From a virus, in the IMG/VR virus record IMGVR_UViG_3300022198_000808, positions 1-36,451 of that record: a stretch of 36,451 bases of DNA. One strand, 5' to 3'. A program made the translations under genes and the position numbers. The stretch's first letter is position 1. Each line of letters starts with the position of its first letter. Under the pieces are notes generated by a model. That model saw only the letters and a program-made list of their open reading frames with translations. It ran no database searches and had not been told where the DNA came from. This document shows, in pieces, positions 3,661 through 35,094 of this stretch.

Positions 3661-3734
3661 GCCCCCGTAGCTCAGATGGAAAGAGCATCTGCCTTCTAAG
3701 CAGACGGTCACAGGTTCGAGTCCTGTCGGGGGTA
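3661..3734 (+). tRNA. tRNA-Arg (anticodon UCU)
   Basis: A full cloverleaf can be drawn. The 7-bp acceptor GCCCCCG/CGGGGGT carries one G1-U72 wobble. The D-arm is GCTC/GAGC and the anticodon stem TCTGC/GCAGA. The loop is CTTCTAA with anticodon TCT at 3695-3697. The T-arm is ACAGG/CCTGT with loop TTCGAGT, and the discriminator is A at 3734. CCA is not encoded. It reads AGA/AGG codons, and AGA is used freely in the phage genes here, so it may supplement the host pool. It stands alone in an otherwise structured noncoding stretch between the recombination and replication genes. Confidence 0.95.
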
Positions 3735-3850
3735 CTTCCCTTCCTATCTACGTCCAACGGGAATTTAAACTCTACCTTGTCGGGTGAGGTGGGATAGCCA
3801 GTCAAGACATATTCGGTTCGAGTTACGGAAGGAAAAAGTTAATTACGCCG
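3735..3850 (+). other. Noncoding stretch after the tRNA with tRNA-like fragments
   Basis: No convincing gene is seen. The segment repeats GGTTCGAGT (tRNA T-loop, 3713-3721) exactly at 3815-3823, and CTTGTCGGG echoes CCTGTCGGG of the tRNA. CCTTCC (3739-3744) can pair with GGAAGG (3827-3832). A second tRNA does not fold because no T-stem forms around the second TTCGAGT. It may be the remnant of a duplicated tRNA or the leader of the following genes. Confidence 0.35.
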
Positions 3851-8142: not shown

Positions 8143-10047
8143 ATGGCTGAAAACCAATTGGTGGGCTCCATTCCATGGGGGCCAGTAGGATACGTCACCT
8201 ATAAAAGAACGTATTCAAGACAGATTAACGACAAGCGCAGTGAGGAATGGCCTGACACTGTGGAGCGAGTAGTCAAAGCGTGCGACAAGCAATTGAACGT
8301 AGGCTTTACACCCGACGAGGAGCAAGAGCTAAGAGAAATCATGCTCAACCTGAAGGGGACTGTCGCTGGCAGATTCCTTTGGCAGCTTGGAACCAAGACT
8401 GTCGACCGATTGGGGCTTCCTTCTCTTCAGAACTGTGCATTCGTTGTTGTTGACGAACCGGTTAGACCTTTCACGTGGGCGTTCGAGATGCTGATGCTTG
8501 GTTCAGGCGTGGGCTTCAACATCCAGCGAGAAAACGTCTACCAATTGCCGAAGGTCAAGAAGAAAAAGATTAAATTGGTTAGGAAAGATGAAAACGACGC
8601 AGACTTTATCGTACCTGACTCAAGAGAGGGCTGGGTCGAGCTGCTCAAGCGTACCATCGAAGCCAGCTTTGAGACTGGTGAGGGATTTAGCTTCGCTACT
8701 CACCTCATCCGCCCAGCGGGAGCTCCTATCAAAGGCTTTGGCGGAACGGCAAGCGGGGCCGAAGACCTAGTCAAGGGAATCATGAGCATCAACGAGGTTC
8801 TTAACAGGCAAGCCGGCAAGAAGTTGCGCCCTGTTGACTGCCTCGACATCATGAACATCATTGGCAGCATTGTCGTAGCCGGAAACGTCCGTCGCTCTGC
8901 GCAGATTGCACTCGGAGACCACGACGACATCGAGTACTTGCGTGCCAAGCGTTGGGACTTGGGTAGCATCCCCAACTGGAGGGCCATGTCAAACAACAGT
9001 GTAGTCTGTGATGACATCGGCAAGCTTCCTGAGGAATTCTGGGAGGGTTACAAGGGTAATGGCGAGCCTTATGGTCTCATCAACCTCGAAGCTTCTCGTC
9101 GTATGGGACGCACTAACGAGACTCAGTACCCAGACCCAGACGTTCAGGGATACAACCCATGCGCAGAGCAGAGCCTTGCAAACTTTGAGACTTGTTGCTT
9201 GGCAGAGATTTACCTGCCCAACATCGAGTCAAAGGAGGAGCTGTTCAAGGTTGCTAAGTATCTTTACCGCATCAACAAGCACAGCTTGGCTATCAAGTGT
9301 GCCATTAAGGAGACTGAGGACATCGTCCATGAGAACATGCGCATGGGAATCGGTGTGACTGGATACCTTCAGGCAACAGAGGAGCAGCGTCAGTGGCTTG
9401 GAGAAGTGTACCCAAAAATCAGAGAGCTAGATGTCGACTATTCAAGAACTAAGGGATTTCCAGAGTCAATTAAACTCACCACAGTTAAGCCCAGTGGCAC
9501 GCTGTCTCTACTTGCTGGCGTTACACCGGGAGCTCATCCCGGATATTCGGAATACTTCATTAGACGAATTAGAATGGCTTCAAGTAGCGACCTTGTACAG
9601 GCTTGCAGGGATAGAGGCTACGGCATAGAGTACGTCAAGAACTTTGACGGGACGGAAGACCATGGCACTGTGGTGGTAGAGTTCCCCTGCAAGTTTCCTA
9701 AGGGCACGACGTTCGCTAGCGACATGACAGCCATCGACCAGCTCAACGTCATCAAGAGACTTCAGCAAGAGTGGAGCGACAACAGTGTATCTGTTACCAT
9801 CTACTACAAGAAGGAAGAACTTGACGACATCAAGGCATGGTTGGCTCTGAACTACTACGACGTAAAGTCTGTGAGCTTCTTGCTTCACAACGAGCACGGC
9901 TTTGCTCAGGCTCCATTTGAGGAAATCACAGAGGAGAAATATATGGAATTGAGTTCCAAAGTTGTACCAATTACTAGCCTTGGCGTGCTGGATATGGACG
10001 ACATTGACATTCAGGATTGTGCAACCGGAGCATGCCCAGTACGATGA
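8143..10047 (+). CDS. nrdJ: Adenosylcobalamin-dependent (class II) ribonucleotide reductase, monomeric type (634 aa)
   Basis: This enzyme reduces ribonucleotides to deoxyribonucleotides with coenzyme B12. Conserved elements are all visible: LQNCAF with redox C98; YNPCAEQSL with the radical-site C340 and E342 and substrate-binding N338; FETCC with C351, 11 residues after C340 as in the Lactobacillus enzyme; a PSGTLSLLAGVTPGAHPG block (450-467); and a C-terminal CATGAC pair (C626, C631) that re-reduces the active site. It is about 100 residues shorter than the 739-residue Lactobacillus RTPR, with both halves reduced. The start 'ttttagctATG' lacks a Shine-Dalgarno sequence. Its stop overlaps the next start (ATGA). 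No thioredoxin or glutaredoxin gene is beside it, so host reductants are presumably used. Confidence 0.95.
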   Translation: MAENQLVGSIPWGPVGYVTYKRTYSRQINDKRSEEWPDTVERVVKACDKQLNVGFTPDEEQELREIMLNLKGTVAGRFLWQLGTKTVDRLGLPSLQNCAFVVVDEPVRPFTWAFEMLMLGSGVGFNIQRENVYQLPKVKKKKIKLVRKDENDADFIVPDSREGWVELLKRTIEASFETGEGFSFATHLIRPAGAPIKGFGGTASGAEDLVKGIMSINEVLNRQAGKKLRPVDCLDIMNIIGSIVVAGNVRRSAQIALGDHDDIEYLRAKRWDLGSIPNWRAMSNNSVVCDDIGKLPEEFWEGYKGNGEPYGLINLEASRRMGRTNETQYPDPDVQGYNPCAEQSLANFETCCLAEIYLPNIESKEELFKVAKYLYRINKHSLAIKCAIKETEDIVHENMRMGIGVTGYLQATEEQRQWLGEVYPKIRELDVDYSRTKGFPESIKLTTVKPSGTLSLLAGVTPGAHPGYSEYFIRRIRMASSSDLVQACRDRGYGIEYVKNFDGTEDHGTVVVEFPCKFPKGTTFASDMTAIDQLNVIKRLQQEWSDNSVSVTIYYKKEELDDIKAWLALNYYDVKSVSFLLHNEHGFAQAPFEEITEEKYMELSSKVVPITSLGVLDMDDIDIQDCATGACPVR

Positions 10048-10894: not shown

Positions 10895-11357
10895 CGTAAT
10901 CGATATATGTGATTGTTACTTCTTGTCCTCCTTCAATTGCAGCCGCAATCTTCGGATAGATGTCAGTATACGCTGCTGAAGAGCGACCGATAAATCCATC
11001 AGGCTTCTTGATGTTGCTTTCCTGAGTCTCCCCAACGAGAAGGCAACCAGCAGTGTGCTCATCAGTGTTGCCACAATGAATAAGTATGTACTCAAAATTA
11101 GGAATGTCCCTAACCCATAGCATACCCTTGTGAATGTCCTTGAAACGCTCCGCATATTTCTCGTGGAATCCCCCAACTGTTCGTAGCGTGACTCGATACG
11201 TTCCAGCGGGAACTCTAGTTTCTGAATAAACCTTCTCGTCCCTTTGCTCATCCTCCAATGTATAACAAAGGAACTTGCGGTCACCGTTTGTGATGTCAAA
11301 CAGAATGCCAGAAGTGCTGTCCTTCTGGCTGCTGAATCTCAGTACTTCTAGTTTCAT
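10887..11357 (-). CDS. DUF5675 protein, candidate cell-wall lytic enzyme (156 aa)
   Basis: The sequence matches the DUF5675 pattern: VPAGTYRVTL (49-58), FEYILIHCGN (88-97) and HTAGCLLVG (101-109). The combination of a 'P-x-G-x-Y' strand, an IH-x-G element (H94) and a later 'T-x-G-C' (C105) is close to the active-site layout of YkuD-type L,D-transpeptidases. A peptidoglycan-acting cysteine enzyme is therefore plausible; this is inference, not an established activity. There is no signal peptide or membrane helix, so it would need the holin to reach its substrate. It starts in an ATGA overlap with the giant ejection gene and overlaps the holin start by 8 nt. No other endolysin candidate is visible in the window. 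Confidence 0.75.
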   Translation of the reverse strand: MKLEVLRFSSQKDSTSGILFDITNGDRKFLCYTLEDEQRDEKVYSETRVPAGTYRVTLRTVGGFHEKYAERFKDIHKGMLWVRDIPNFEYILIHCGNTDEHTAGCLLVGETQESNIKKPDGFIGRSSAAYTDIYPKIAAAIEGGQEVTITYIDYDG

Positions 11358-14300
11358 TCTTCAATTGATTCGATATATCTACCCTCAGTGTAGAATGCAG
11401 GCTTGACGATTGAGAAGTAGGTGTCGATGAAGCTCTTGAGTCTGGCGAACTCTTCTGACGACATGTCTTGCTTCTTACCTCTGAGGTACGCATAGTAATC
11501 ACGTGCGTTCTTCAGTTGAGATGGCAGCTTTCGAACCTCTCTCATGTACTTTCTATGCTCTTCTGGGTAAGCTGTCTCCATGTGCTTCTCTGCTACGAAA
11601 GGCTTGACGCTTGAGCTAAAAGAGTTCGTAGCCCGAATCTTGTCGAATGGATTTGACAGCTCACCAACGATGTCTGTAATCCTTTCCTTCCCTTCGCCTG
11701 CCTCAAGCTTTGCCCCGTACTTCTGAGCAATTGTTTCGTATGCCGCGAGTGCTTCCTCATTGGACAGCCTACGGTCTCTTGGGAGGTCATCCATCTCTCG
11801 TACAAGGATGTCAATTTCCTTGCTTCCAAGGCCGGCAACCTGACCAACGGCAAGGAACATCTTAAGGTAGTAGTGCAACATCATGGCGTCCTTGTCTTCG
11901 GGTCTGACGTAGTATTCCATGCCGCTGCTCGTGACAACCTTGTTGTTGCTCTTGCCCACATTGGCAATGATTGTTCTGGCGTCATCAATGAAGTCACCGT
12001 ATGGGCCAAGACCTCTGGTGAATCCTTGGAATGGGTCTTTAGGCGCACCTTCGTAATACATCTGCGCACCCTTGCCGAGTCTAGTCCATCTCTCGTACCC
12101 GTCGTCGTCACCGAGATTGAAGTCGCCCTCTCTCATTACATCCATCGGATACCACAGGTAGCGATTCATCAAGCCTTTAATCTGACTATCGAATACTCCG
12201 AAAGGAGGCAGCGGTTGAGCATCGGTGAGAACCTGCGTTGCAATCTCCCGCCACATGTTGTCCTTCGGCAACTCTTCCTCGTCGTCATCCATAAAGATGG
12301 CTGCGATTGAAGGAATCATAACCTTGCCGATGTAGGCAAACAGCGTCAATTCAGCGGCGTGTCCAAGCATCGCAACACCGCCTTCCTTCTTGGCTTCAGT
12401 ATCACCATACCACATACGCATCGCGTCAGATGAGATGCTTCGCTTCTTGTTTACAGCAAACCTAGAGAACGGCAAGAGGATGTTTTGAGCCATGTAGTTT
12501 ATCATGTTCTTCACGCCCTTCTCATTCTGGTAAAGGTCTGCTGCTTCGCGTGGGGTAGATGCCGCTTGGTCTTTGTTGACCATCATATCCGCGTAGCTGA
12601 GTGCGGTCTTGTTTGGGTTCGCAGCTTCGTAGTCCCAGTTGATTTGGTCATAGCTCTCGACAATACCCTCACTGATAAGTGCATCGCCGTAGAACGTAAA
12701 CCATGAAGCAACAGCGGCAACTTTATCTGTACCCTTCAGGTTCTTGAGGCTGATGTTGGTCAGAGAATCAATGAGCTTAGATAGCTTGCCTTGGTCTAGG
12801 TTCATGCCCCCCGTGTAAGGGTCAATGTTTCCAGACTCGTAGTCTCTTTGGAATACCGGAGAGTTTTGGAGAAGCTTGTATCTGCCGTTATCAAGAGCCA
12901 TCTTACTGTCCTCTCTTGCCAATGTATTGAGAGAGAATGCGGCCATCTCCGCTACCGTCTGAAGCAGGTATGGGATAGCCTGAATAGGGTTCTTAGTCTG
13001 GAACATAACAGACATGAGAACTGTAGACTGCTTCAGCGTTTGGATACCGAAGCTGCCGAAAGCCTTTACAATCACTGCATTTCTCAGCAGGTTGATTGGG
13101 TTGATGTACTTCGGTGTCGGAACCCCAAGGAAACGATTGAATGTAGGTTGGAATACGGGAGGGGTCTTTGCCGTATCCTGTTGGACATACAGCCTAACCT
13201 TTCTTTCATACTCGTTACGAACCTTAGCATCAGGGATGAGCTCCTTCATTGCATCGCTGTTGAGCGCGTGGCTAGCGACGACGACATCCCCCACAGTGTG
13301 AGACAATATAACGTTGTCTCTAATCGTTCTCTCATTGATTGACAGGAAGTCGAGTCCTATTCTGTTGTTGCCCTTCAATGAGCGTGGGTTTCTTTCGAAG
13401 CTGCTTCCTGCAACCTTCTTTGAGTTGGATAGCGACGAGCTGGCAATCTGGTCGCTCAGAGACATGCGAAGCTTGAGCATATCGTCAACGTCTCTAACCC
13501 CTGTCTCTGGGATGACCTCAAATGCGGTGTAGTTTTCTTCAACCACAAGCTCCTTGCCGAGGTATCTTTCCACGTAGTTCTTGAACTGCGGCATCAGTGT
13601 CGTGTGGATGTCTGCCACAAACTGAACGAGCTGAACGACATCACCTCTTTCGTTCTCAATTCTTGACATCAACTCAGGCAGCGTCTCGTCAACACCGAAC
13701 AGATAGTTGAATGCATCTTCGAATTCTTCACGCTCACTGGGGTCGAATGACTTCTGCTCATTGTAGTAGTCAATCGTTCTGCGCATGGCGTTCCTAAGCT
13801 CCAGATACCAAGATGCTTCGGCACCACCACGCTCGCCCTCAAACTCAGGAAGCTGTCTTGCCATCGAGTAAATCTGAGCAATAGCCCTGTCTACGCGACC
13901 CTTGACGCTTCCCCCTTCTTCGGTGATTCTGTCAATCTCTGCCTCAATCAGCTCCACGATTTGAGAGTGAATGAAGTCAGCTTTAGCAAAGCTCGTCGTG
14001 AGTGCACCGAGGCCGATGGCGTTGCGGAGTTTCGCAAACGAAATTCTGTCGGTTGGAATAAGGTTTGACAGGTAAGAGTTTACCGTGTCGAGCGGGCCAA
14101 GAAGAACCCTTGACCTAGACTTCAGCCCCTTATTCTTTCTCAAGCGAGAAATCTCAGCAGGCATATCGATAACACCCTTTACAAGGGAATGCATGTAGCC
14201 AATGCCATACACTGAGTCGTTTACGATGTAGTCATCAAGTCTGTAGTCGAGGTTGATGATGTGGTGACGCTTGAGCTTTTGCAGTCTTTCGGTAAGCCTC

Positions 14301-17300
14301 GCCAAATCCAAGTCCTCCTCAGTGTAGATGCCGAGGATTTCTGCAATCTGCGTGTCCTCCAAAAGCTTCTCAATGTTGGCTACGATACGTGGGATGAGGA
14401 CGTCGTAGATGATGGCGTCCTTTTGCAGCTCTTCCTTGAGCGCGGCTTGGTCAGCCAGTATCTGAGAGATGATGTCGATGTGAGCTGGGTTGGTCTCATC
14501 AAGGACGATGGTCTCACCGGTATCTGGATGCTGAATGGTAGGGTTGTCGTCTATGAAGTTCAGGATAGCGCGTCTGCTTGACGACAGCCTGCTTCGCTCG
14601 TAGTTCTTTACAATCTTGTTGTACTCCTCCTCGATAGTAGTGCCATTCTTCTCTGCTCTGATGGCAGCCCTATTCATGAAGAGTGCTTGTCTTCCGAGCT
14701 CCTCCATGGCTCGATACGACGAGAGCTTATTCATCAGGATGGAAGCCCTTGTCTTCGGGAACGCCACTCCAACGTATGCCTCAACCTCCTCATCGAACAC
14801 CGCCTTAGACTTTGACATAGAGCTGATGGTCTGCATCAGTGTGTTGACGAAATCAGCCAGCTCATTTTGTGGGAGCAGGGCAGGGTTGATTGCGGCTAGA
14901 CCGTTGGCAACCCTTGCATAAGATGCAACACTCTTAGGCGCAGCACCACGGCCACGGGTCTTAGCCATACGCTTGATTCGCTGCTGCAATCCTTGAGCAT
15001 GACGGATGCCGTCGAGGTATTTCTGAAGCTCTGCCTTCGCGTCACGTTGGTCAAAGATGACAGAGATTTTGTCAATAAAATCCTGCATGGCATCAAGCCC
15101 ATTCTCGCTAGCCTTCTTTGCGCTAGTCTTGTGAGCTTGGCGCACATACTTGATGAGTGCCATAACCTGAGACCGAGTGAATGGAGTCTTTGCGTTCTCC
15201 TTCATTCGCTCGTCAATCAACTCAAGAGCTGCGGACAGGAATTGATTAAACGTGTTTGACTTGTCTTTCAGCTGCTCAAGAGCCTTCTTCAGGTTCTTCG
15301 CCTTGGTAGAAATCTTGCGAGTCTCGGCGGCGTTCTTCATGGCAATCTTCATGCCTTCACGCTTGCCTTGTACTCTACCCTCCTTGTATGCAACGGCTCT
15401 CTTATACAGGCTTTCTGCACCATCCTTTGTAAACCCGCTCTCCATGAGAGTCTTAATCACCTCCGCCTTGACGTAGGTGTACGAGAACAACTCCGTCTGA
15501 CCCACGTCCTCGATACCGACAACCGGATTCTTTTTTCTACGGTCTCGAATAACCTTAGGTGTCGGGTACTTCGCGTCAATCATTTGAGACACGATACGTA
15601 ACAGATTATCTTGTGCCTTTGCCTCGTAGTCAACGACGGACTGGGACTTTGGTGCCAGCCTAGCCACACCGTACGCTTGGTTTCTAAGTCCAAGCAGCGC
15701 AGTCCAAGCAGCGTCAGCTGCCTTGCGCGAGTCAACTAAATTACCGTTGATGTTAATCTTACCAGTGTACTTCGGGTGGAACTTTTCTACGAAAGCCTCG
15801 CGCCCCCAACCACGCTCTGTAACGTACACCTTTTCCGCCATCGGCCTTTCCGAGAACAGGTGCATCTTCGGTGGCTTCTTATTGCCGTTCTCATCAACTT
15901 GATAGATGGCTGCCGGAAACACAGACTCACCCTCTTCGATTCCAAACGTGACGTCAGAATCAATTTCTACAGCAGCATACACCTGACCGGGCATCGTGCC
16001 CTGAAGCAACCTCTCAGTAAGCATCTGAGAAACAATACGCTTTGTCACCGAGCCGCCCTGCTTCTTTCCAACATTGCCATCGTGACCAAGCATCTCTCCA
16101 ATTGACTGTCTGGCCGCGTCGTTGTCGACCAACGCATTACCCAAGTTCACGAATAGTCTGTCCGTTAAGTACTTGCGCTTGCCGAACGTAGAGGTCGTGA
16201 CATTCGACATGTGGGATAGGATTCTCTCCACAATCTCAGCCCTCGTACCAGTCATCGGGATTGGCTGTTTCTTGGGGTAGGCTTGCTTGAAAGAATCAAT
16301 GAGAAGTTTGTTGAACACAGACTCCTGCATCACGCCCTGCTCAACTAACTTTCTGAGAATGATTTCAGTGGCTCTTAATGCGCCAGTGTTGCTGAAGAGT
16401 TTCTCTTGAGTCCCACTCACAAGCACGAAGTATGCCTTGCCATCAGGGGACTTTCTTCTAAGCTCGTTGAGCTTGTCCGCAATCTCTTTAGCTTCCTTCT
16501 CCTGAGCTACTGCCCATACATTTCCAGTTCTTACTGGATAGAACATACCGCCACCGCCTTCAAAGATTAGTTCGCCATCAAAGTACAGCTGACCAACCAT
16601 CATGTTGTCAGGAGAAGACGTGATAAACCCTCTGCCCTGAAGGAGTTCGTCCATGTCTACGTTGTGGACAACGATTCCCTCCATCAACTTCTTGAAGTCC
16701 TTGTCGTTCTCGGCATACTTGTTCTCGAAACGACCAAAAATCTGAGCCTTATTTGAGAACATCTTGCTCGTGTCGGTAGCCGTCTCTCCGGGTACAGACT
16801 TCTGGAACTTCATGACGCTGCCATCAGGTCTGGTCATGGCAAACCTCTCGTCAGATGGCAGTGCCTTGACAGCACCCTTGGCAAGCACGAGTGCTCCAAT
16901 CTGAATCACCTCATCGGCATTGACAATAGGATTGCCGTCTCTCTTGTCGTAGAACCAGCTATGTCTGAACGGGTTCATGCCAACTTGAATCCAGCCGTCA
17001 ATCTTTCCTTCCGCAACATCGTCCATATTGTACTCCTCGCTAGCCATAATCTCTACAGCTCGCTCTCTCAGAGACTCGGAGTCATGGTTCTTCCACTTGC
17101 CATGCATGCGGGCAATGGTGCTCTTCGCAAACTTTCTAGGCTTGCCTGTTTTCGGGTCAATCTTCCCCTCAGGGGATTCTCCAACAGCAATGTTGAACGC
17201 ACCCTTCGCGGCCGATACAAACTCAACGTCAGTGATGAGTCCTGTCTGTCCATAGGCGATAGCCTGACCCCTGCCTTCGTGTGCCGTAACAACCCAGATG

Positions 17301-20300
17301 TCATAAAACTCATAGGCCGGGATGTCCAACCTCAAAGCCACCTCGTATCCGTCTGGGATTTGCTTGTTTACATCGATGATGCCGCGAGCAATTTGATTTG
17401 ACTTCAGTGCAGCGGCAATGTCAAGGATGGATGGCACGTCAGGTACGGCAACCATGGGTGAGATTGGCTGCTCTCTACGAACAATCTCGATGTAATCACC
17501 TTGACCAATCTCATTAAAGTAGTATCTCCTTGCGGCCTCAACTACAGGAGCTACGCGCTTCTGACGCTGGTCTTCCGGAAGCTTAATCTCCGTCTCTCTT
17601 GCTGAAAGCTCTGCTTCGGTGAAGCCTGATTTAGCAAAGAAAGATTCAGTGCCAACGTCTTGTGTAAGAGACTTGATGACCGCCTGTGCCTTGCCGTTAG
17701 ACAGCCGTTCTGCATACTCATATGCTTCCATATAGTCTGTCATCCTCACGCCTTCTCCAACCTTGCCCTCTCCCCTTACGAAGAACACAACATCTGGTTG
17801 GTCTTTGAGTGGCGAGTCGGCGTCGTCCCAACCTTCTGGGGCAAACTCAGGGTTGAAGTCCAACCTAGCCACCGGCTTCCACCCGTTGCTAACGTACATG
17901 GCCTCCAGCTTCGTCGCAAAAGCATCGTAAAACTTGCCGCCGTTTCTCGCTCTGATGGTTTGTAGTGGGCCACTAATAGCGACCAACTCAGAGTCCGGGT
18001 TCTTAAACAACCCGCCCATGTATCCGTCAGCCTTGAGGTATGCACCGCCCATCCCGTCCTTCATGATGAACAGCTTACCCCCGTCATCGAGAATTTTCTG
18101 CGCGTCCTCTGCGGTCATGGCGTCCACCTGAAGGAACAGCTTCTTTTTCAGCTCACGCATCCTGTCGGTAGCCTCCGTCATGGCCGCTGCCCACATGACT
18201 GCGTCAGTAGTTTCCTCTACGTCTCTGTTTCTAGCATAAACACCTTGAGCTTTTGGGGTAAGGTCTTCAAGCTGGATTGCCATCGCATTATATCCAGCCC
18301 TAATCAGTGCCTCTCTGAGGTCTGTAGTACCCGTCACGGCCTCTCCTTGCTCAAGCTGCCCCGTAACCTTTTGCAATGCAGTAACGAGGTCTTGAATTCT
18401 TGGGTCGGTATCTGTCATGTCGACGTCGATACCCATGGCATTCAGCGAATCCTTTACGTGCTTCTTGAATGCGTTAACCAACCCCCTCTTCACACTGACC
18501 TCGACGTTAGCTGTATCTCCAGTCATGTCAGCGAGCAACTCCACCAAGAACTCCTCGGCTGCAAGTGGGTTTTCTCTAATTGCCTTCAATGGGTTTAGCG
18601 TACCCTCGCTGTAGGCTCTAGTGAAGTTGATGTACTTCGTTCTAATGTCCCCAGTCAAGCCTCTAAACAAGCTTTCAGCCAGCTGTTGAACGGCGGTTGG
18701 GCCAATGGCTTCTAGAATCAAGTCGTGATAAGCCTCGTGAAAGCCGGTGTTCTCCATAATCAATGGAGCAAACAAGTGAATCTCACCTTTCTTGGCCCAC
18801 ATGCCACGGCCAAGCTGGTCTTTCGGCACACCCACTGCATCTGCATAAGAGTCAATGGTCTTGTGAATGGTGACGCCTACGAAGTTGCCAGTCTTTGCCA
18901 GTGCCTTTGCTACGGTGACAGCGTTCTTCATGGCACGCTTCATCGTCTCTCCAGACTTGAATACACCTCGCTCAGAAATACCTGACACGGTGTCCATCGT
19001 TGTCTGATTGATAGCGTCAAGTACGGCGTCTGCATTTTCTCCAGTGACAGTGACGGAGTCTACGTCGCCTTGGAAGATTTCTCCGTAACCGTTATATCGC
19101 TTGTCAATTTTTGACAAACCACGAGTGATTCTACCGAACTCACTATTGATGTCGATACTATAATCGAGACCCAGTTCATTCTCAAGCTTTGCTCGTTCGT
19201 CAATCAGGGCTGAGACCTGCTCCTTCAAAGCCTTGCGGCTGTCTGCGTCTTGGGTTCTAGCGTACTCAATGCCAAGCTTTGCAATTCTAGACTGGAGACC
19301 CTCAAGCTTTGCGAACATTTCTGGGTTTGTCTCAGCCAGATTCTTGTAGAAGTTTACCCTGCCGAGCTTCTTGTCCCACGCCCTCTGAATCGTGTCTGAA
19401 ATTTTCTGACCAATCTCAGCCCTGAGTTCCTTAGTTGGGGCTGCATCATATTCCTTTGCCAGCTTAGTGATTTGAAGCGAGTCTCTGAGGCTAGGGATAG
19501 AAGAGAACCCCATGCTCCATGAGCGAATCTCATTGATTCCAGCACGGGTGCCGCGTACCGTGCCGGTAAATGCGCTTGCAGCACCAGCAACTCCACCACC
19601 AAGGGTTACGCCAGCATAGAACCCCTCCTTCGTTGCCTCCCAAAGTCCCTCGTATGAGAACTTCATGTTGGGGTTGGCGGCTGTACTCAAGTAGTACTGA
19701 CCAGCAGCGGTGACGCCCTCCGTGATACCCTCTTCTGCGGCACCTCCGAACACGGCCATCAACGCACCTCTAGCCCAAGACTCAGCTGCCTTCGTTCCAC
19801 CGTTTGCCAAGATGTTTGTTCCGATGGATGTAGCCACAAATGCAGGTGCGCCCTCCAAGAAGCCCATGGCGGAAGTGTATCCAGCCTTTTCCAACCCGTT
19901 CATTTGCTGGAACCAGTCCTCGTCACGAACTGCGTTATAGCTAGTGCCCATACCCATGAACGTGGTGGCAGCAAGAGCACCCCTGTTTTGAGCCCTTCCA
20001 GCCGCAGCCATAACGCGGGCAGAGACAGTCGTCTTTTGAGCACCTCCGAGATAACCGCCAGTAGCTCTGTACAGCCTACTGAACTTGTTCACTTCCTTAA
20101 ATGCCTTGCCAGCTTCGATAATTTTTCTGGCCTCGGCAACTCTTTCGGCACCAGCAAGCCCCCTGAGAGAAGACAGATTAGCACCTCTAGCTGCCCTGCC
20201 TCTCGAAGCGACACCAGCAACAAGGGCAGCTCCCATCATGGGAGCAGATTCACCGAACATTCTTAGCCCGTCGTCGACATACCTTTCGAGGGAATCGAAG

Positions 20301-21400
20301 TTTACTGGCATGAGAGGGCTTGCGTTTGCAATCTGCCCCATCATATCATCAGTACGCTCAGACCAAAGCTTCAGCGAAAATGGCAAACGCTCTGAAGCCT
20401 CTTGAGCCATCTTGTCGCTTTCTTCAGCAGCACTGAAAGCCCAGTTTGAAAACCAGTTGTCTTCACCAAACACAGCCACAGCCGCATCACCCATGATTTT
20501 ATTCATGCCTGACATCGACTCGTGCCAAGCTCTCGCGGCAGTCAACCCCGCCCCCGAACTCTCGGCATCCTTCTTGAGGAATTCGTAACCGCCAATGTAT
20601 GTGTCGTTGTTGAAGTCAAGGGCGAGATTGTGCTCGTCCCACATGTACCGCTCAAACTTGCTGAGTTCTTCTGGGTTATTCCTGATGTCCTCTGGGATAA
20701 GCTGTCTCATGCTGGGCCCCATGTCCATAGCAACTTGCCCTCCAACACTTTGAACCGCTTCACTGACTCTTTCTGCGAGCGTATATTTCTGTTCCTGAAC
20801 ATAGTCTCCAGTCACCTCGTCGATGCCGGCCATGTTCCTGAAGACGTTCTCGTTGACACCAGCAAGCAAGTATCTGTTGACTTCGAAGTCTGGGTCTTCT
20901 TGAACCAGCAAGTAATCAACGAGGTTTGACTTTGCTTCATACCTCTCGTTCTCTGTCGTAGCCAACTTGTATGCGTCAAGCAGCTCTGCGTTAACCTCAT
21001 CTACTCCGCCCTCACGGATGAGCAAGTCTTCGTATCTATCGACGCTAAATTTGTCACGCAAGATTTGCGTGTATGCGTTGTCGAAGTTTTCAGCCGTCTG
21101 GTTTAGGATGTCCGCGACGTGGTCTGGCACGTACACGTTGGGTCTGATAGGCGTGTAGCCCTCATGAATCCTGCTTCTTATACCCGAACCCGAAGGTGTA
21201 ATGCCTTGTTCTCCACCCAGATTTGTACTCGCACTTGAATCCAACGAATCCACCTCCGAAGTGGGCTGAGACGGTAATGCTCCTTCGGGCTGGTCTTTTT
21301 TTTTTAATCCGTAGAAGTCCTTAATGATGGCATTGATTTCCGTCATTGAGGCTCCACGCTCCCGCGCAGCATCAATAAGTGCTTTGAGTTCTGGATTCAT
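11354..21400 (-). CDS. Giant polyvalent ejection/internal virion protein with zincin motif (3348 aa)
   Basis: At 10 kb this is over a quarter of the window. It resembles the very large multidomain 'polyvalent' proteins packaged in virions and injected with DNA. Visible parts: a Ser-rich linker (35-75) with an A10 tract in its gene; Gly/Ala-rich helices near 390-620, including AAEEGITEGVTAAGQYYL; a zinc-metallopeptidase motif HEAYH (H888, E889, H892) with candidate third ligands E949/E950/E954; a region about 1100-1210 (GGAYLKADGYMGG through PDVVFFVRG) that could be acetyltransferase-like; a polyvalent-type block WIQVGMNPFRHSWFYD near 1470-1485; long charged helices about 2050-2450; and a VILSHTVGDVVVASHA region near 2700 followed by hydrophobic helices. 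It probably forms part of a channel and delivers enzymatic domains to the cell. The start is 12 nt after the upstream stop. Confidence 0.85.
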   Translation of the reverse strand: MNPELKALIDAARERGASMTEINAIIKDFYGLKKKDQPEGALPSQPTSEVDSLDSSASTNLGGEQGITPSGSGIRSRIHEGYTPIRPNVYVPDHVADILNQTAENFDNAYTQILRDKFSVDRYEDLLIREGGVDEVNAELLDAYKLATTENERYEAKSNLVDYLLVQEDPDFEVNRYLLAGVNENVFRNMAGIDEVTGDYVQEQKYTLAERVSEAVQSVGGQVAMDMGPSMRQLIPEDIRNNPEELSKFERYMWDEHNLALDFNNDTYIGGYEFLKKDAESSGAGLTAARAWHESMSGMNKIMGDAAVAVFGEDNWFSNWAFSAAEESDKMAQEASERLPFSLKLWSERTDDMMGQIANASPLMPVNFDSLERYVDDGLRMFGESAPMMGAALVAGVASRGRAARGANLSSLRGLAGAERVAEARKIIEAGKAFKEVNKFSRLYRATGGYLGGAQKTTVSARVMAAAGRAQNRGALAATTFMGMGTSYNAVRDEDWFQQMNGLEKAGYTSAMGFLEGAPAFVATSIGTNILANGGTKAAESWARGALMAVFGGAAEEGITEGVTAAGQYYLSTAANPNMKFSYEGLWEATKEGFYAGVTLGGGVAGAASAFTGTVRGTRAGINEIRSWSMGFSSIPSLRDSLQITKLAKEYDAAPTKELRAEIGQKISDTIQRAWDKKLGRVNFYKNLAETNPEMFAKLEGLQSRIAKLGIEYARTQDADSRKALKEQVSALIDERAKLENELGLDYSIDINSEFGRITRGLSKIDKRYNGYGEIFQGDVDSVTVTGENADAVLDAINQTTMDTVSGISERGVFKSGETMKRAMKNAVTVAKALAKTGNFVGVTIHKTIDSYADAVGVPKDQLGRGMWAKKGEIHLFAPLIMENTGFHEAYHDLILEAIGPTAVQQLAESLFRGLTGDIRTKYINFTRAYSEGTLNPLKAIRENPLAAEEFLVELLADMTGDTANVEVSVKRGLVNAFKKHVKDSLNAMGIDVDMTDTDPRIQDLVTALQKVTGQLEQGEAVTGTTDLREALIRAGYNAMAIQLEDLTPKAQGVYARNRDVEETTDAVMWAAAMTEATDRMRELKKKLFLQVDAMTAEDAQKILDDGGKLFIMKDGMGGAYLKADGYMGGLFKNPDSELVAISGPLQTIRARNGGKFYDAFATKLEAMYVSNGWKPVARLDFNPEFAPEGWDDADSPLKDQPDVVFFVRGEGKVGEGVRMTDYMEAYEYAERLSNGKAQAVIKSLTQDVGTESFFAKSGFTEAELSARETEIKLPEDQRQKRVAPVVEAARRYYFNEIGQGDYIEIVRREQPISPMVAVPDVPSILDIAAALKSNQIARGIIDVNKQIPDGYEVALRLDIPAYEFYDIWVVTAHEGRGQAIAYGQTGLITDVEFVSAAKGAFNIAVGESPEGKIDPKTGKPRKFAKSTIARMHGKWKNHDSESLRERAVEIMASEEYNMDDVAEGKIDGWIQVGMNPFRHSWFYDKRDGNPIVNADEVIQIGALVLAKGAVKALPSDERFAMTRPDGSVMKFQKSVPGETATDTSKMFSNKAQIFGRFENKYAENDKDFKKLMEGIVVHNVDMDELLQGRGFITSSPDNMMVGQLYFDGELIFEGGGGMFYPVRTGNVWAVAQEKEAKEIADKLNELRRKSPDGKAYFVLVSGTQEKLFSNTGALRATEIILRKLVEQGVMQESVFNKLLIDSFKQAYPKKQPIPMTGTRAEIVERILSHMSNVTTSTFGKRKYLTDRLFVNLGNALVDNDAARQSIGEMLGHDGNVGKKQGGSVTKRIVSQMLTERLLQGTMPGQVYAAVEIDSDVTFGIEEGESVFPAAIYQVDENGNKKPPKMHLFSERPMAEKVYVTERGWGREAFVEKFHPKYTGKININGNLVDSRKAADAAWTALLGLRNQAYGVARLAPKSQSVVDYEAKAQDNLLRIVSQMIDAKYPTPKVIRDRRKKNPVVGIEDVGQTELFSYTYVKAEVIKTLMESGFTKDGAESLYKRAVAYKEGRVQGKREGMKIAMKNAAETRKISTKAKNLKKALEQLKDKSNTFNQFLSAALELIDERMKENAKTPFTRSQVMALIKYVRQAHKTSAKKASENGLDAMQDFIDKISVIFDQRDAKAELQKYLDGIRHAQGLQQRIKRMAKTRGRGAAPKSVASYARVANGLAAINPALLPQNELADFVNTLMQTISSMSKSKAVFDEEVEAYVGVAFPKTRASILMNKLSSYRAMEELGRQALFMNRAAIRAEKNGTTIEEEYNKIVKNYERSRLSSSRRAILNFIDDNPTIQHPDTGETIVLDETNPAHIDIISQILADQAALKEELQKDAIIYDVLIPRIVANIEKLLEDTQIAEILGIYTEEDLDLARLTERLQKLKRHHIINLDYRLDDYIVNDSVYGIGYMHSLVKGVIDMPAEISRLRKNKGLKSRSRVLLGPLDTVNSYLSNLIPTDRISFAKLRNAIGLGALTTSFAKADFIHSQIVELIEAEIDRITEEGGSVKGRVDRAIAQIYSMARQLPEFEGERGGAEASWYLELRNAMRRTIDYYNEQKSFDPSEREEFEDAFNYLFGVDETLPELMSRIENERGDVVQLVQFVADIHTTLMPQFKNYVERYLGKELVVEENYTAFEVIPETGVRDVDDMLKLRMSLSDQIASSSLSNSKKVAGSSFERNPRSLKGNNRIGLDFLSINERTIRDNVILSHTVGDVVVASHALNSDAMKELIPDAKVRNEYERKVRLYVQQDTAKTPPVFQPTFNRFLGVPTPKYINPINLLRNAVIVKAFGSFGIQTLKQSTVLMSVMFQTKNPIQAIPYLLQTVAEMAAFSLNTLAREDSKMALDNGRYKLLQNSPVFQRDYESGNIDPYTGGMNLDQGKLSKLIDSLTNISLKNLKGTDKVAAVASWFTFYGDALISEGIVESYDQINWDYEAANPNKTALSYADMMVNKDQAASTPREAADLYQNEKGVKNMINYMAQNILLPFSRFAVNKKRSISSDAMRMWYGDTEAKKEGGVAMLGHAAELTLFAYIGKVMIPSIAAIFMDDDEEELPKDNMWREIATQVLTDAQPLPPFGVFDSQIKGLMNRYLWYPMDVMREGDFNLGDDDGYERWTRLGKGAQMYYEGAPKDPFQGFTRGLGPYGDFIDDARTIIANVGKSNNKVVTSSGMEYYVRPEDKDAMMLHYYLKMFLAVGQVAGLGSKEIDILVREMDDLPRDRRLSNEEALAAYETIAQKYGAKLEAGEGKERITDIVGELSNPFDKIRATNSFSSSVKPFVAEKHMETAYPEEHRKYMREVRKLPSQLKNARDYYAYLRGKKQDMSSEEFARLKSFIDTYFSIVKPAFYTEGRYIESIEE

Positions 21401-21412
21401 TCTTTATCCTTC

Positions 21413-23278
21413 TTAGTTGCCGTAAGCAGTGGAGTCCTGAAACATCAGCTGTCCGTTACCGATGTATGGGTATCTGCCGTTTTCTGCCTCCGCTAAGATA
21501 CGGGTTTTAGCAGCAGTCTGGTCTCCCGGACGAAGGCTATCAACCCAGTCCATTACTTCGGCTGCATCGATTTCATTGAGCGCAACGGCACCAGCCATGG
21601 CTTGAGCGTAAGCACTAGCCAACTCAATTGCTTCGTCTGTAGGTGCATTGCTATGCATCTTTATCATAGCGTCCTCTGCATCAATCAAGAACTGAGCCCC
21701 TCCCCTCTTGCTCTTTGATGGTGGGGCAACCTGATTAATAGTAGTAAGAACTTCCTTAAACACTTCTGGATTGGACTCCTGCATCACGGTGAAGTTCATG
21801 ATTGGCGTTCCTTCAATACCGAGGATTGCTTGGTCAAGAATTCCCGGCCCAGTATTCAAATCAAAGCCAATGAGCTTTCCTGTAGAGGGGTCGTGAATCA
21901 AGTTCTTTACTTCAACCTTAATATCTCCAGACGTAAGCTGAGTAACCATCTGGTCTTCGATGGGCTTACCATTAGCGTCTGTCGGCTTAGGGAGAGCATT
22001 ACCGCTGATGTTGAATCTGTAAGACCTTCCCGGCACGCTAGCCTTCACCTTTGGGTATGGGTCTTTTGTTGGGCCTATCTTATCTCCAACTTGAGTAATG
22101 ATTGGCTCCATAAAGGAATCAATCGGCGTGTACTCCATGGGTGGCTCTTCTGGGTCTGGAATCTCGCTGAGAATTTGCTTTCTCAACTGAGCAGTTTCAT
22201 CGCTAACCACGATAAGCTGTCTTGCTCTTCGCGCTGTGGCCTCTGCCCACCCACTAACAGCCTTTCTTTTCTGAATCATCTCAGGCATTCCGACCCGATT
22301 CAACTCCTCGTCGGTGACGTCAAATACCCACTTTCCCTCCTCGTTAATGTTTCCCGAAGTAAGAGACTTGCCAGCATTAACGCCAGTAGGATACTCTGTA
22401 TCGAACAGTTCTGCTTCTGTGTAAAAGGCTTGAGCTTCAGCGAAGTCTCTTTCAGTTAGTTCAGTCTTACCCGGCACACGGATATTCTTGTACCCCCAAG
22501 CTTGCATGGCTTCTAGCAATTCAGGCCCACGTGTGGTAAGCCTGTTATTGATTTCATCGTTGATGTCAGAGAAGATAGCTGCCTCGTCTACCTCGCCTGT
22601 CGCATAACCCAGTTTTCGAACTTGATAAGTCTCTTGCTTTTGACTCAACAACGTCTCATAAATGTCTTGACCCACGGTCTCAGGAACGTACTCTGTTCCC
22701 TGCCACTTCATCTGCGGAACGTACACGTCGTTCATGTCCGCAATATTTGACGTCTTCCAGTCTACATATTGTCCATTGACCGAAACTTCAAGCATTCCTG
22801 TCGCTTCATTCCATCTGTAGTCAGCAGTGTTATACTGTTCGAAATCAGCGAGCGTTTCTTCTGTCGAACCAGACAGGTTTTTGATTGTGCCGTTAGCAAT
22901 GCCTAATCTGGTCTGTCCATCCAGTGCGCTCTTTGCTGATGAGATGTTCTTAAACTGAATAAACTCTCCCTTGAGCTGTTGATACCTAGCGATGTCGTCT
23001 GGATTGCCAGACTGGTATGCTTTTGTCGCCGCCTCCTGATACCTGTCAAGAAGAGTCTGGGCACCTACTCTGTACTTCTCACCAACGCCAGCAGGGACAG
23101 ACTCCTCAAGAGCCTTGGTAAATCCCATGGTTTGGTTGAGCTGGTTCTGCCTAACCCTACGGTCGTTCTGGATTAATTGCGCCGTATTAGTGATGTCTTC
23201 ACTAATCTGCCGTCCCATCTCGCCGAAGCTTACTGGAGCCCCGACAAATCCGGTTTTAAATCTAGTTCCTTCAGCCAT
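21413..23278 (-). CDS. Internal virion/ejection protein (621 aa)
   Basis: No named family is recognised. The first 130 residues are helical (ISEDITNTAQLIQNDRRVRQ and similar) and the rest mixes helices with Gly/Pro-rich beta segments; Gln/Glu/Ala-rich helices recur. It lies between a short coiled-coil ejection protein and the giant polyvalent protein, in the place that T7-like and Bacteroidota podoviruses use for internal core proteins. The start overlaps the upstream gene's end by 8 nt. No enzymatic motif is visible. Role as an ejection protein is inferred from position and composition. Confidence 0.7.
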   Translation of the reverse strand: MAEGTRFKTGFVGAPVSFGEMGRQISEDITNTAQLIQNDRRVRQNQLNQTMGFTKALEESVPAGVGEKYRVGAQTLLDRYQEAATKAYQSGNPDDIARYQQLKGEFIQFKNISSAKSALDGQTRLGIANGTIKNLSGSTEETLADFEQYNTADYRWNEATGMLEVSVNGQYVDWKTSNIADMNDVYVPQMKWQGTEYVPETVGQDIYETLLSQKQETYQVRKLGYATGEVDEAAIFSDINDEINNRLTTRGPELLEAMQAWGYKNIRVPGKTELTERDFAEAQAFYTEAELFDTEYPTGVNAGKSLTSGNINEEGKWVFDVTDEELNRVGMPEMIQKRKAVSGWAEATARRARQLIVVSDETAQLRKQILSEIPDPEEPPMEYTPIDSFMEPIITQVGDKIGPTKDPYPKVKASVPGRSYRFNISGNALPKPTDANGKPIEDQMVTQLTSGDIKVEVKNLIHDPSTGKLIGFDLNTGPGILDQAILGIEGTPIMNFTVMQESNPEVFKEVLTTINQVAPPSKSKRGGAQFLIDAEDAMIKMHSNAPTDEAIELASAYAQAMAGAVALNEIDAAEVMDWVDSLRPGDQTAAKTRILAEAENGRYPYIGNGQLMFQDSTAYGN

Positions 23279-24215
23279 TGTCGTCTGCCTTTTCGAATCT
23301 GTTTACGAGTGAGCGCACAAATTTATGAAGCGGTGACTTGCCTTTGTCGGCCTCCCTCTTCAGTCTTCGCGCGTCCTTTGGGGCGATTACATACTCGCCG
23401 CCTGTCAAGGCAATGTTCATGTCCTTGCCATCCTCATCGACAACGTACATTTCGTTCGTGTCGTGGTTGAACTCACCCGGTGTCTTCTGAACCTTACCGC
23501 CCTTCTCCATGCCAATGCCGATTGCTGTCTTGGCAATACCACCAACGGTATTGGTGATACCCGCTCCAATCTGCTGCATCGCCGCTGCCTTGGCTGCTTC
23601 AGCCTTAGCAACTGCATCGTAACCGTAATCGATGTCTCTGGTAGAGCGTGCCTCTCTTCTCACCACCTCCTGCTGTCTTGCATCTGCTAAATTTGTAAGA
23701 GCCTGAGTTTGAAGCTGCTGCTGAGTGAGAGCTTGCTCCTGCATCTGACGCTGTGCCTGCTCAGTAGCCTGCATGATAGAGCCCAATCCTCTAGAGCCAT
23801 ACTGCTGCGCCGCTGATGCTGTAGTAGCGAGAGAACGATTGATGTCTTGAGTTCTCATCTGAACCAACCTCTGGTCGTAGGCATTCTTTACAGCCATGTA
23901 ATACTCGGCTGGAGTTGAGAGAGATGGCTGTGAAGCTTTTAGTCTCTCAAGCTCTTGGTTAGATGTCATGATGTCCTGCTTGGCCTGACGGTTGGCTTTG
24001 ATTCCCTGAAAAACATCTACAATACCGCCCACAGCTTGAACAATACCACCTGTGGTAGCACTTGCCTTAGCTGCTGCTGAATTGTAGAGAGAGTCCTTTG
24101 TACCCGAAGCCTCTGTACCCACGCTTCTCGTGTCTGGAACGTTACCGAGTATCTGAGCGTCAGTCATCAGGGGGTCTGTTTTAGGGTCTCCAAGGGGTGA
24201 GTTGTATAAAGACAT
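23271..24215 (-). CDS. Short ejection/internal virion protein with C-terminal GGEYV motif (314 aa)
   Basis: Residues 45-230 are Ala/Gln-rich helices (for example QAQRQMQEQALTQQQLQTQA), typical of small internal virion proteins that line an ejection channel. Two Gly-rich hydrophobic stretches (GGIVQAVGGIVDVF and GAGITNTVGGIAKTAIGIG) could insert in membrane. The C-terminus carries PGEFNHDTNEMYVVDEDG and TGGEYVIAP (271-279), a pattern seen in structural proteins of crAss-like and other Bacteroidota phages. The first base of its ATG is the last base of the nozzle gene's stop, and its end overlaps the following gene by 8 nt. Confidence 0.72.
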   Translation of the reverse strand: MSLYNSPLGDPKTDPLMTDAQILGNVPDTRSVGTEASGTKDSLYNSAAAKASATTGGIVQAVGGIVDVFQGIKANRQAKQDIMTSNQELERLKASQPSLSTPAEYYMAVKNAYDQRLVQMRTQDINRSLATTASAAQQYGSRGLGSIMQATEQAQRQMQEQALTQQQLQTQALTNLADARQQEVVRREARSTRDIDYGYDAVAKAEAAKAAAMQQIGAGITNTVGGIAKTAIGIGMEKGGKVQKTPGEFNHDTNEMYVVDEDGKDMNIALTGGEYVIAPKDARRLKREADKGKSPLHKFVRSLVNRFEKADDNG

Positions 24216-27200
24216 CAGTTCTCTTGTTGTTCGTTATGAAGTGGCGATGGGGTAAACACCATGTTTACTGCGTACAGCTCGACATCAGCCGTATTCGTAT
24301 TAGTTAGTTTCACTTTTGAGTAGTAGTCCCTCATGTGGTCTCCGTTGATTGAGCTATGGGACACAGCAATAAGCGTGTCACCAACAGAGACTCCCGGCGT
24401 ATCGTTAAGCGTGATTGACGTTCTACTGTCAACCGAAGAGATGTGCCTAGCTGTCTCTGTTTCAGAGCTTTCCGAAAGTACGTTAACCCTGTCTCCAAGT
24501 CCAAACGGAAGGTTACTTATTCTTGACGTAAACGTCACCGTGTTTCCACTAACGCTAGCAACCTCTCCAAGCACCACTTTGTTAGACCCAGACGAATCGG
24601 TCGACGACCCAGAGGTGTCTTTTGGAATGACAGAGTACCGAAGCCCTTCCTTAACCTCATACTCCCCACTACCAATTGATGTGGATTGACTTGAGTTCGT
24701 GATGACCGCAGACCAGTTATCATCACCCTCCAAGCTAATAGCATTGTACACCTTTACCATGGATGGGTTGACCCTAGATATAATCGTAATACTTGAGTTG
24801 TATTGAGTGCCGTAGAAGTTATTGTTAGTGTTGTTGACGTTATGCCTGTACATCTGACCATTCTCAAACGAGAAGAAGCGATTATGAAGGTTCGCATACA
24901 TCTCTGGGTTGAATGAGTATAAGCTCATCCAGTATCCTTTGGTGGTGCTATACGCCACTGTATTACCATCGTCATCCAGCCCATCCGTAACGGATATATT
25001 TACCGACGTATCAGATAAAGTACCAAACTTAATTAGCGTATCTGGGAAGGAAATAGAACCGTCAACATTATTGATTAACCCAACTCCACGATACTTGCCA
25101 TCGGAAGTCAGGATGTCAATCTCAACATCAGAGGTACTAAGCCTACTACTTGGGTCAACGAATACCGAGCCACGCTCAGTGAGTTTATCGACGAACATGA
25201 TTGACCCCCCTAAGCTGTCCCATTGGGGAAGGTATGACACAGGTGTGATATTTGTATCACTCCATATAAGCGAGTCATTGTCCCAAGTCATCATATTGTT
25301 ACTACCATAAACCGGCTTCACCTTTCCGGATGGGTTTGACACCCTCGCATTGGTTGGTGGTTTCTGCACATCGCCCACCGTGTCACCATCAATAATGATG
25401 TCGTTCACATCTTGCGATTCTGTTGTAACTAGAATTTCGTCATTCTCTGGGTCGATACCACACGGAATCCTAGGGACGGAATCCCTGAGTAGCAACTCAG
25501 CAAACAAGCCCTCAAAGAATGAACTCATACTCTTGTCACTTATGGGTTCAATCCCATTACTTGAGAGGGCAAACACCTTACCAGCATCCATGTCGCAGAA
25601 ATACGTGACACCAAACCGCTCGACGACAGACTCCGGGTTTAGTCCGGGGCCGAATGAACCGGCAAAGTAGGTTTCATTACCTAGGACGTTGGTGCTGGTT
25701 ACAAGCATTCCATCCCCAGATGTTTCAATAAGCTGTCTTCCGATGGGGGTTGAGCTCACCTTTTTCTCCTGCATGGTAAGCATACCTTCGCCCTTGTCAA
25801 CCAAGAAGCAGATAGCCCCATACTTAGAGTTGTAGTCTTTGTATGGATAGAGTACAGGGTTGAATGAAGACAGGCTCAGGATTGAAGAGTCAGACGCAAA
25901 CGGAGCACTGTAAGTGACAGCCGTGTGTCTCCTGATTTCTTTTTGGTCTGGGGTCTCGATGAACGGCCTTCCAATGCTAGATGCTTTTGAATCAAAGAAA
26001 TCGCTAACCGACTCATCCTCTACCACCCACTTCCTGTACAGCTGGTTGTCTGGTATGGTGGGGTTGTAAAGGTAGGTTACACTGTTGTCTCCTGACGGGG
26101 TGAAATCAACTTGAGGATTGCTTAGTTGCTCTCTAATTCTCATGAATACATCACCCGTTGTTAAGGTAACGACTCCTTTGTGTATGCTATTGCTGCTACC
26201 AACGGTGGTTGATATTGATGCACTAACGAGGCCAGTAGCCGCTATGTCGGTTTGAGAGAACGAACTTCCATCAGAAATGCTGTACGCGAACTCTCCGCTT
26301 TCTAACGGTCTAATCCCAGCTACAAATACATTAGAGTTAGCCGTGATAATCTTGTCACCTAAGTACAGTCGATGTGCAGACTTGAAGGTGTTTGTTCCGG
26401 TTACGTTGATGCCGAAGATTGGAGAGACACTGTTAGACCTATCGCCAGCGTGAGTTCTTACTCCTCCCACCTCAATGACATCGTACTGCTTCTTCAGCTC
26501 ATAGTATATGCGAGACTCCTCAGTAGACTCCTTCTTTGGTGTACAGATTTCTACCAAGCAGTTCTGGCTAAACTTGTCTTTTCCAAGAAGAACATCAGCG
26601 CGAGAGAATCCGGGGATGTTGTTGTCTCTTACAGTAAGGAACCAGCCAGTACGTCTGTAGTTTGTTTCGTCATCCTCATCGCTAATATCGCTAAGCCTGA
26701 TTGGGTTTTGGTCGTCGTCGCTATAATACTTGTATGATGTGATGACAAACTCGTGAAGAGGTCTCTGGATGTTCCCGTCTGAGTCTTCGTATTGAAGCAC
26801 ACGCAACACATCACCCTCGGCAAATTGATACGACAGCTTAGCTCCTTTGAAATCTCGGTATGAGTTTGATTTCCCCTCAAGCCCCCTCATTGATATGAAG
26901 ATTTGACCGTTAGTCCCCTGTTCTAGTCCCTGAGTAATCGGTCTTGTCTTCGTGCCATCGTTTGAACGAATGTCTGTAAATGTTGTCTGCTTTCCGGTTG
27001 CTGCTTCGTTCACAACAACTTGCAGAATCTTATCATACGAAGTATTCTTCGAGTACACAGGAGCCCATTTCTTCGCCCATGTCGGCGGGTCGTGTAAGAT
27101 TCTCAAGTCTATCTCCGTTCTCCCGTTGTTGCCTTGTCGGTTTTCGCCAAAGTGCTTGACGTACTTCTCTTTTATAGGCTGAACACCTGACGGTCTGTTC

Positions 27201-34833: not shown

Positions 34834-35094
34834 TTACGCCCTAATTCCGTACTCTCCAGCCGCTACGGTGTAGGTATATTCCCCATCAGCTGTCAGATAT
34901 GTAAACGACATTCCGCCATCAGGAATAAGGATTGAATCGTAAGTGGCCTCCCATGTTCCGTCGCCGTTGTCAACGCACTCGTCGAGTGTGAGTTCGTTAA
35001 AGACAAATCCCATGTTGGGAAGCTCTGGTGTGCTCCACGTCTGCTCAAGCTCCTCTTGAGAGGACACGGTATATGTTCTACTATTCCGAATCAT
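34834..35094 (-). CDS. Small hypothetical protein in the head/tail operon (86 aa)
   Basis: Unrecognised, short and beta-rich (RTYTVSSQEELEQ, GTWEATYDSILIPDGGMSFTYLT, EYTYTVAAGEYGIRA). The alternating strands suggest a small beta-sandwich, possibly a decoration or tail accessory protein. Its start overlaps the stop of the RCC1-like protein (ATGA, 35091-35094), implying coupled expression and maybe interaction with it. No enzymatic residue pattern is visible. Confidence 0.6.
   Translation of the reverse strand: MIRNSRTYTVSSQEELEQTWSTPELPNMGFVFNELTLDECVDNGDGTWEATYDSILIPDGGMSFTYLTADGEYTYTVAAGEYGIRA

Follow-up and report, generated by a model that had tools for sequence, protein, structure and literature searches.

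The giant open reading frame of IMG/VR virus record IMGVR_UViG_3300022198_000808 (36,451 bases, analysed in full and here called the window) most probably encodes the largest ejection, or cargo, protein of a Bacteroidota-type short-tailed phage, an injected polyvalent protein with an exchangeable cassette; we rate this reading at about two chances in three. The N-terminal part and the mostly helical C-terminal half would serve as a packaging and delivery scaffold, and the middle (residues ~780-1900) would be the exchangeable cassette, made up of a zincin, a GNAT-like module, a phage-only domain resembling L5 gp82 and a domain associated with the zincin (LPD). Packed into the capsid together with two smaller operon partners, the giant would exit via the muzzle-gated tail before the DNA and arrive inside the cell; the zincin would cut the giant polypeptide itself, freeing the cassette domains, and possibly host proteins as well. 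Packaging, ejection and entry rest on analogy with the systems discussed below; zinc-dependent cutting and what the remaining domains do are likewise inferred.

The late operon and its ejection slot

The earlier note had described a 3,348-residue protein from one 10-kb gene and given no strand. The reading frame at 11354-21400 is indeed a single unbroken one of 3,348 codons, and it lies on the minus strand, the plus-strand reading being full of stops. The gene stands in a late operon with the following landmarks:

11354-21400, minus strand: giant ORF P0001, 3,348 aa, ATG start, the largest of the ejection/cargo trio and its final gene
21413-23278, minus strand: 621-aa mid-size trio member, in the position of DEV gp72 and T7 gp15 by gene order only
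23271-24215, minus strand: 314-aa small trio member, in the position of DEV gp73 and T7 gp14
24215-29413, minus strand: crAss-type muzzle/tail protein, 1,732 aa (Pfam crAss_MUZ, 1.6e-14; PHROG structural, 3e-101)
31957-33357, minus strand: major-capsid-type virion protein, which places the phage near Elemovirus, Callevirus and Pachyviridae

Read along the minus strand, the operon runs from an RCC1-like gene through the major-capsid-type and adaptor-like proteins, the muzzle and the 314-aa and 621-aa proteins to the giant, followed 3' by a small PHROG-1501 protein and then a holin. The neighbours of the giant are virion late genes (muzzle, adaptor-like, capsid, holin), as expected of a polyvalent protein, and the small, mid-size and giant genes are consecutive within one late operon and form an ejection trio by gene order. 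The 314-aa protein aligned with syntenic small virion proteins (hhalign E 2e-5, probability 76%); for the 621-aa protein, homology to its flavophage counterparts was not detected.

Capsid and muzzle place the phage near Elemovirus, Cellulophaga phages phi38:1 and phi18:3, Tenacibaculum phage Gundel and Maribacter phage Panino. These neighbours are all Bacteroidota phages, and the window phage is probably a short-tailed relative of phages of marine Bacteroidota. Full-length relatives of the giant share 57-63% identity with it, and a search for near-identical DNA among 50,697 phage records gave no match.

The order muzzle, small, mid-size, giant recurs in phi18:3, whose syntenic giant, gp123, is annotated as structural by MS/MS, though it is a distant protein that lacks the HExxH motif. 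By analogy with gp123 the window giant is probably packed in the particle and, as its slot suggests, shot into the host. The name ejection protein, given to it earlier, fits its place in the ejection/cargo slot of the late operon. The syntenic giants of phi38:1 and Panino likewise lack HExxH. The Panino protein of 1,829 aa (PANI_CDS0069, L006:12229-17718) bears the record name 'tRNA methyltransferase', which looks doubtful because no Pfam methyltransferase match was seen.

Several further features of the window were recorded. The RCC1-like protein, a 'regulator of chromosome condensation' by PHROG (35091-36404, minus strand), is encoded on the side of the late operon where the head genes lie. 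A block on the opposite strand carries a 634-aa ribonucleotide reductase (8143-10047, plus strand) and a single tRNA-Arg (tct) at 3661-3735. A 455-aa plus-strand frame at 31981-33348, antisense to nearly the whole capsid gene, is probably a codon-usage artefact.

Domains of the giant protein

No Pfam or NCBIfam family was accepted for the giant. Its matches in BFVD comprise ART-PolyVal, NAT_SF, LT_GEWL, large-polyvalent-associated proteins and an Elemovirus structural protein. The protein divides as follows, in order along the polypeptide:

19091-21400, minus strand: N-terminal region, residues 1-770, with a Gly/Ala-rich stretch at ~440-680
18371-19033, minus strand: zincin-like metallopeptidase domain, residues 790-1010, recognised by motif, Glu cluster and predicted fold
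18725-18739, minus strand: HEAYH, residues 888-892, sole HExxH of the giant
18539-18556, minus strand: second-helix Glu cluster, residues 949-954, with E950 and E954 as candidate third zinc ligand
17753-18148, minus strand: GNAT-like domain, residues 1085-1216, without canonical acetyl-CoA motif
16826-17593, minus strand: 'HSWFYDK' (HSWF) domain, residues 1270-1525, remote kin of Pfam PF25735 Phage_L5_gp82
15806-16738, minus strand: zincin-associated domain ('LPD'), residues 1555-1865, without Pfam family
11357-15703, minus strand: C-terminal half, residues 1900-3348, mostly helical, more conserved in near relatives than any other part

The earlier note had singled out HEAYH at residues 888-892 and a Glu cluster downstream as marks of a zinc-peptidase candidate. 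From composition, 0.025 HExxH motifs are expected in the giant, and 2.25% of 2,000 shuffles contain one. For the conservation check proposed for H888, E889 and H892, a zincin profile was built from 12 relatives, its H/E/H columns were masked, and it was run on loci fetched via other domains. It matched 26 distinct proteins, every one of which carries HExxH, with variable x positions (AY, AF, GY, VF). When the HExxH regions were aligned, E950 was kept in 25/26, E954 in 21/26 and G872 in 23/26 (HExxH itself is present in 26/26 of this alignment by construction, because the segments were cut by the motif). An AlphaFold2 model of residues 773-1900, computed from 46 sequences, reached a pLDDT of 79.8. 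It contains, in model numbering (giant residue minus 772), a helix at 45-63, strands at 70-74, 94-98 and 101-105, a helix from 113 that holds HEAYH and a helix at 173-188 that holds the Glu cluster. In its order of secondary structures the model matches the layout reported for the metallopeptidase (MPTase) domain of polyvalent proteins, namely an N-terminal helix, three strands and two C-terminal helices (PMC5512222). A PDB fold search with the zincin region gave no significant match; among the matches listed there was a single zincin, at E 5.1. Taken together, the motif, the second-helix Glu residues and the predicted fold support a zincin-type metallopeptidase domain at residues 790-1010, for which catalysis is presumed from sequence and model.

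Scans of viral contigs for a degenerate pattern gave no match with the zincin region alone, and near relatives plus one weak match with a three-member alignment. At locus L137 (IMGVR_UViG_3300025876_000019), VEEFAHAE stands ~140 residues before the giant's LPD, where HExxH would be expected; judged by its letters, it is possibly a degenerate, inactive peptidase.

The acetyltransferase-like region noted earlier at ~1100-1210 corresponds to a real module, residues 1085-1216, which is 72-84% identical per 50-residue block to the nearest relative and whose best PDB match is the RimI-type structure 4j3g (probability 0.99, E 0.019). The GNAT-like fold is therefore retained from that claim. The Q/RxxGxG/A acetyl-CoA motif, however, is absent in all 16 relatives inspected (12 + 4), which makes transferase activity doubtful despite the fold. 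The giant of Tenacibaculum phage Gundel_1 (gp074, L009:16109-23557) carries another GNAT, in which the motif is intact (RGQGKA), together with an HEFGH zincin, which suggests a separate acetyltransferase capture in the same slot.

The HSWF domain was matched in 427 IMG/VR contigs, in 3 isolate phage records among 50,697 and in one bacterial MAG contig among 84,980 genomes. Against PF25735, the copy in the window scores 13 bits (cut-off 27), and several homologues exceed the cut-off, with up to 40.8 bits; no description of the function of L5 gp82 was found in the literature searched. The domain also occurs as a stand-alone gene of ~305 aa (L061, L063, L064, L066), and in the phages ctYwJ313, CRP-9 and CRP-207 it is located between the portal and coat genes.

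For the LPD, the libraries searched held no family. The domain was found at 37 viral loci, 36 of which were confirmed by the LPD profile. HExxH precedes it in 31 of these 36, at a spacing of 144-182 residues in 20; where more sequence intervenes the spacing is longer, ~350-365 residues, or 660 in the family of the window. This recurrent pairing in cis fits action of the zincin on its own chain, or its regulation by the neighbour. The phrase 'undescribed effectors' in the earlier note is fair for two modules, HSWF, for whose distant Pfam kin no function was found, and the LPD. Both are widespread modules with no assigned role, and one of them is nearly invisible in cultured phages.

The Gly/Ala-rich stretch of the N-terminal region is common to syntenic giants of Cellulophaga, Flavobacterium, Tenacibaculum and Maribacter phages, and N-terminal profiles of the window family and the flavophage giants align with an hhalign probability of 95.9% (E 5e-9). 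For the C-terminal half, homology to the flavophage giants was not detected, and a PDB fold search, with the structure predicted for residues 2290-3348, remained without match. Hits to Peptidase_C65 (E 0.065), 4HB, Acetyltransf_11 (best 3e-4, in 12/18 members) and the pyrophosphatase 2eb0 (E 2.5e-4) were rejected as spurious, as they fall on all-helical stretches that lack the context of those enzymes.

Module exchange and likeness to known systems

Reading the module order with one profile per module revealed extensive rearrangement. Near relatives show the order of the window, zincin, GNAT-like, HSWF and LPD; L034-L036, L038 and L046 have zincin and HSWF, with the GNAT-like domain and the LPD missing; L037, L040 and L042 have zincin, LPD and HSWF; L118, L124 and L132 have the GNAT-like domain, zincin and LPD; and in Elemovirus just the zincin and the LPD are present. 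Within the close group the two terminal parts do not change, and relatives lose and reorder the modules between them. Constant ends and shuffled modules therefore look like one chassis with interchangeable inserts, and they support the idea of one delivery chassis carrying interchangeable enzymes. The four separable cassette modules, with activities presumed from fold and motif, bear out the multi-domain polyvalent architecture that had been claimed for the giant, a protein of several unrelated domains.

The class of polyvalent proteins (Iyer et al. 2017, PMC5512222) resembles the giant in being encoded by very large late-operon genes, in gathering several domains of unrelated kinds about a central zincin MPTase and in its predicted delivery with the DNA. 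It differs in that Pfam detects none of its domains in the giant; neither the L5gp82-like domain nor the zincin-associated one matched a named LPD in the libraries searched. A zincin accompanied by interchangeable, partly undescribed domains makes the giant an example of this class and not a new kind of system.

The virion RNA polymerases (vRNAP) of N4 and DEV share the slot. DEV gp71 is of nearly equal length (3,398 aa), belongs to an operon trio and consists of three parts, an N-terminal one, an enzyme at ~800-1900 and a helical C-terminal one (PMC10925440); the N4 protein also has an MPTase. They carry an RNA polymerase in the middle, whereas the window protein has zincin, GNAT-like, HSWF and LPD modules there. 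A virion RNA polymerase was rejected for the giant, which gave no such match in Pfam, PHROG or PDB and lacks the DxDGD motif of multisubunit-type polymerases. With no recognisable polymerase domain, it seems to occupy the same slot and not to be a member of the vRNAP family. In crAssphage, polymerase proteins travel as cargo, and their genes follow that of the muzzle (PMC10172136). The cargo proteins gp45-gp50 thus resemble the giant in position and packing, and the window muzzle matches the crAss muzzle family, but the large crAssphage cargo proteins are RNA-polymerase-related. That the RNA-polymerase cargo slot of N4 and crAssphage here delivers a swappable effector cassette, led by the zincin with a dedicated undescribed partner, and that HSWF represents a new class of injected effector, is a tentative proposal and, as a whole, rather unlikely.

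Closer in content is Elemovirus gp18, a syntenic structural protein of 3,694 aa, from a cultured phage of Flavobacterium sp. BAL314, with an HEIFH zincin followed ~153 residues on by the same LPD and nothing inserted between the two; unlike the giant, it has no HSWF but a DUF3293, and its C-terminal half is not detectably homologous. DarB-like giants such as JC1 gp69 (4,515 aa; PMC9144972) are likewise giant multi-domain proteins, and gp69 was found in the virion by MS, but its helicase-like, LPD3, LPD38 and lytic-transglycosylase-like domains were not found in the window giant. DarB and transglycosylase architectures were accordingly discarded.

Possible targets of the zincin

In the polyvalent class the zincin, its commonest domain, is proposed to free separate domains from the polypeptide (PMC5512222), a processing role that is predicted rather than shown. 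The giant family, clean and with dozens of relatives, is suited for testing zincin function. Taken on its own, self-processing by the window zincin falls slightly short of even odds. The N4 vRNAP carries an MPTase and yet is packaged unprocessed (PMC5512222), so that self-processing before packaging cannot be assumed.

Alternatively, as the earlier note suggested for host defence or regulatory proteins, the zincin may be injected as an effector against one particular host protein, be it of defence, signalling or the envelope, and leave the giant itself uncut. Retention of HExxH while the flanking modules shuffle would suit such an effector, as would the frequency of protein-modifying domains in the polyvalent class (PMC5512222). 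The close partner domain, usually in cis, fits work on the own polypeptide at least as well, however, and in the class literature (PMC5512222) self-processing is favoured no less than host-protein cutting; we consider an effector of this kind unlikely. An entry role akin to that of T7 gp16, in which zincin and partner assist in crossing the envelope or in forming the ejection channel and nothing cytoplasmic follows, would agree with a giant that is the largest of the ejection trio, a slot used by channel and engine proteins. As the searches of the giant returned no peptidoglycan hydrolase, be it a transglycosylase, a lysozyme or another, this role appears very improbable. A purely structural or assembly protein whose zincin acts in prohead maturation before packaging, for which the processing of P1 DdrB before encapsidation (PMC5512222) and the portal-coat location of HSWF in ctYwJ313, CRP-9 and CRP-207 could be cited, is highly unlikely too, since the gene of the giant follows the muzzle gene, outside the head block, and the syntenic giants of phi38:1, phi18:3 and Panino indicate that assembly in those phages proceeds without need of HExxH.
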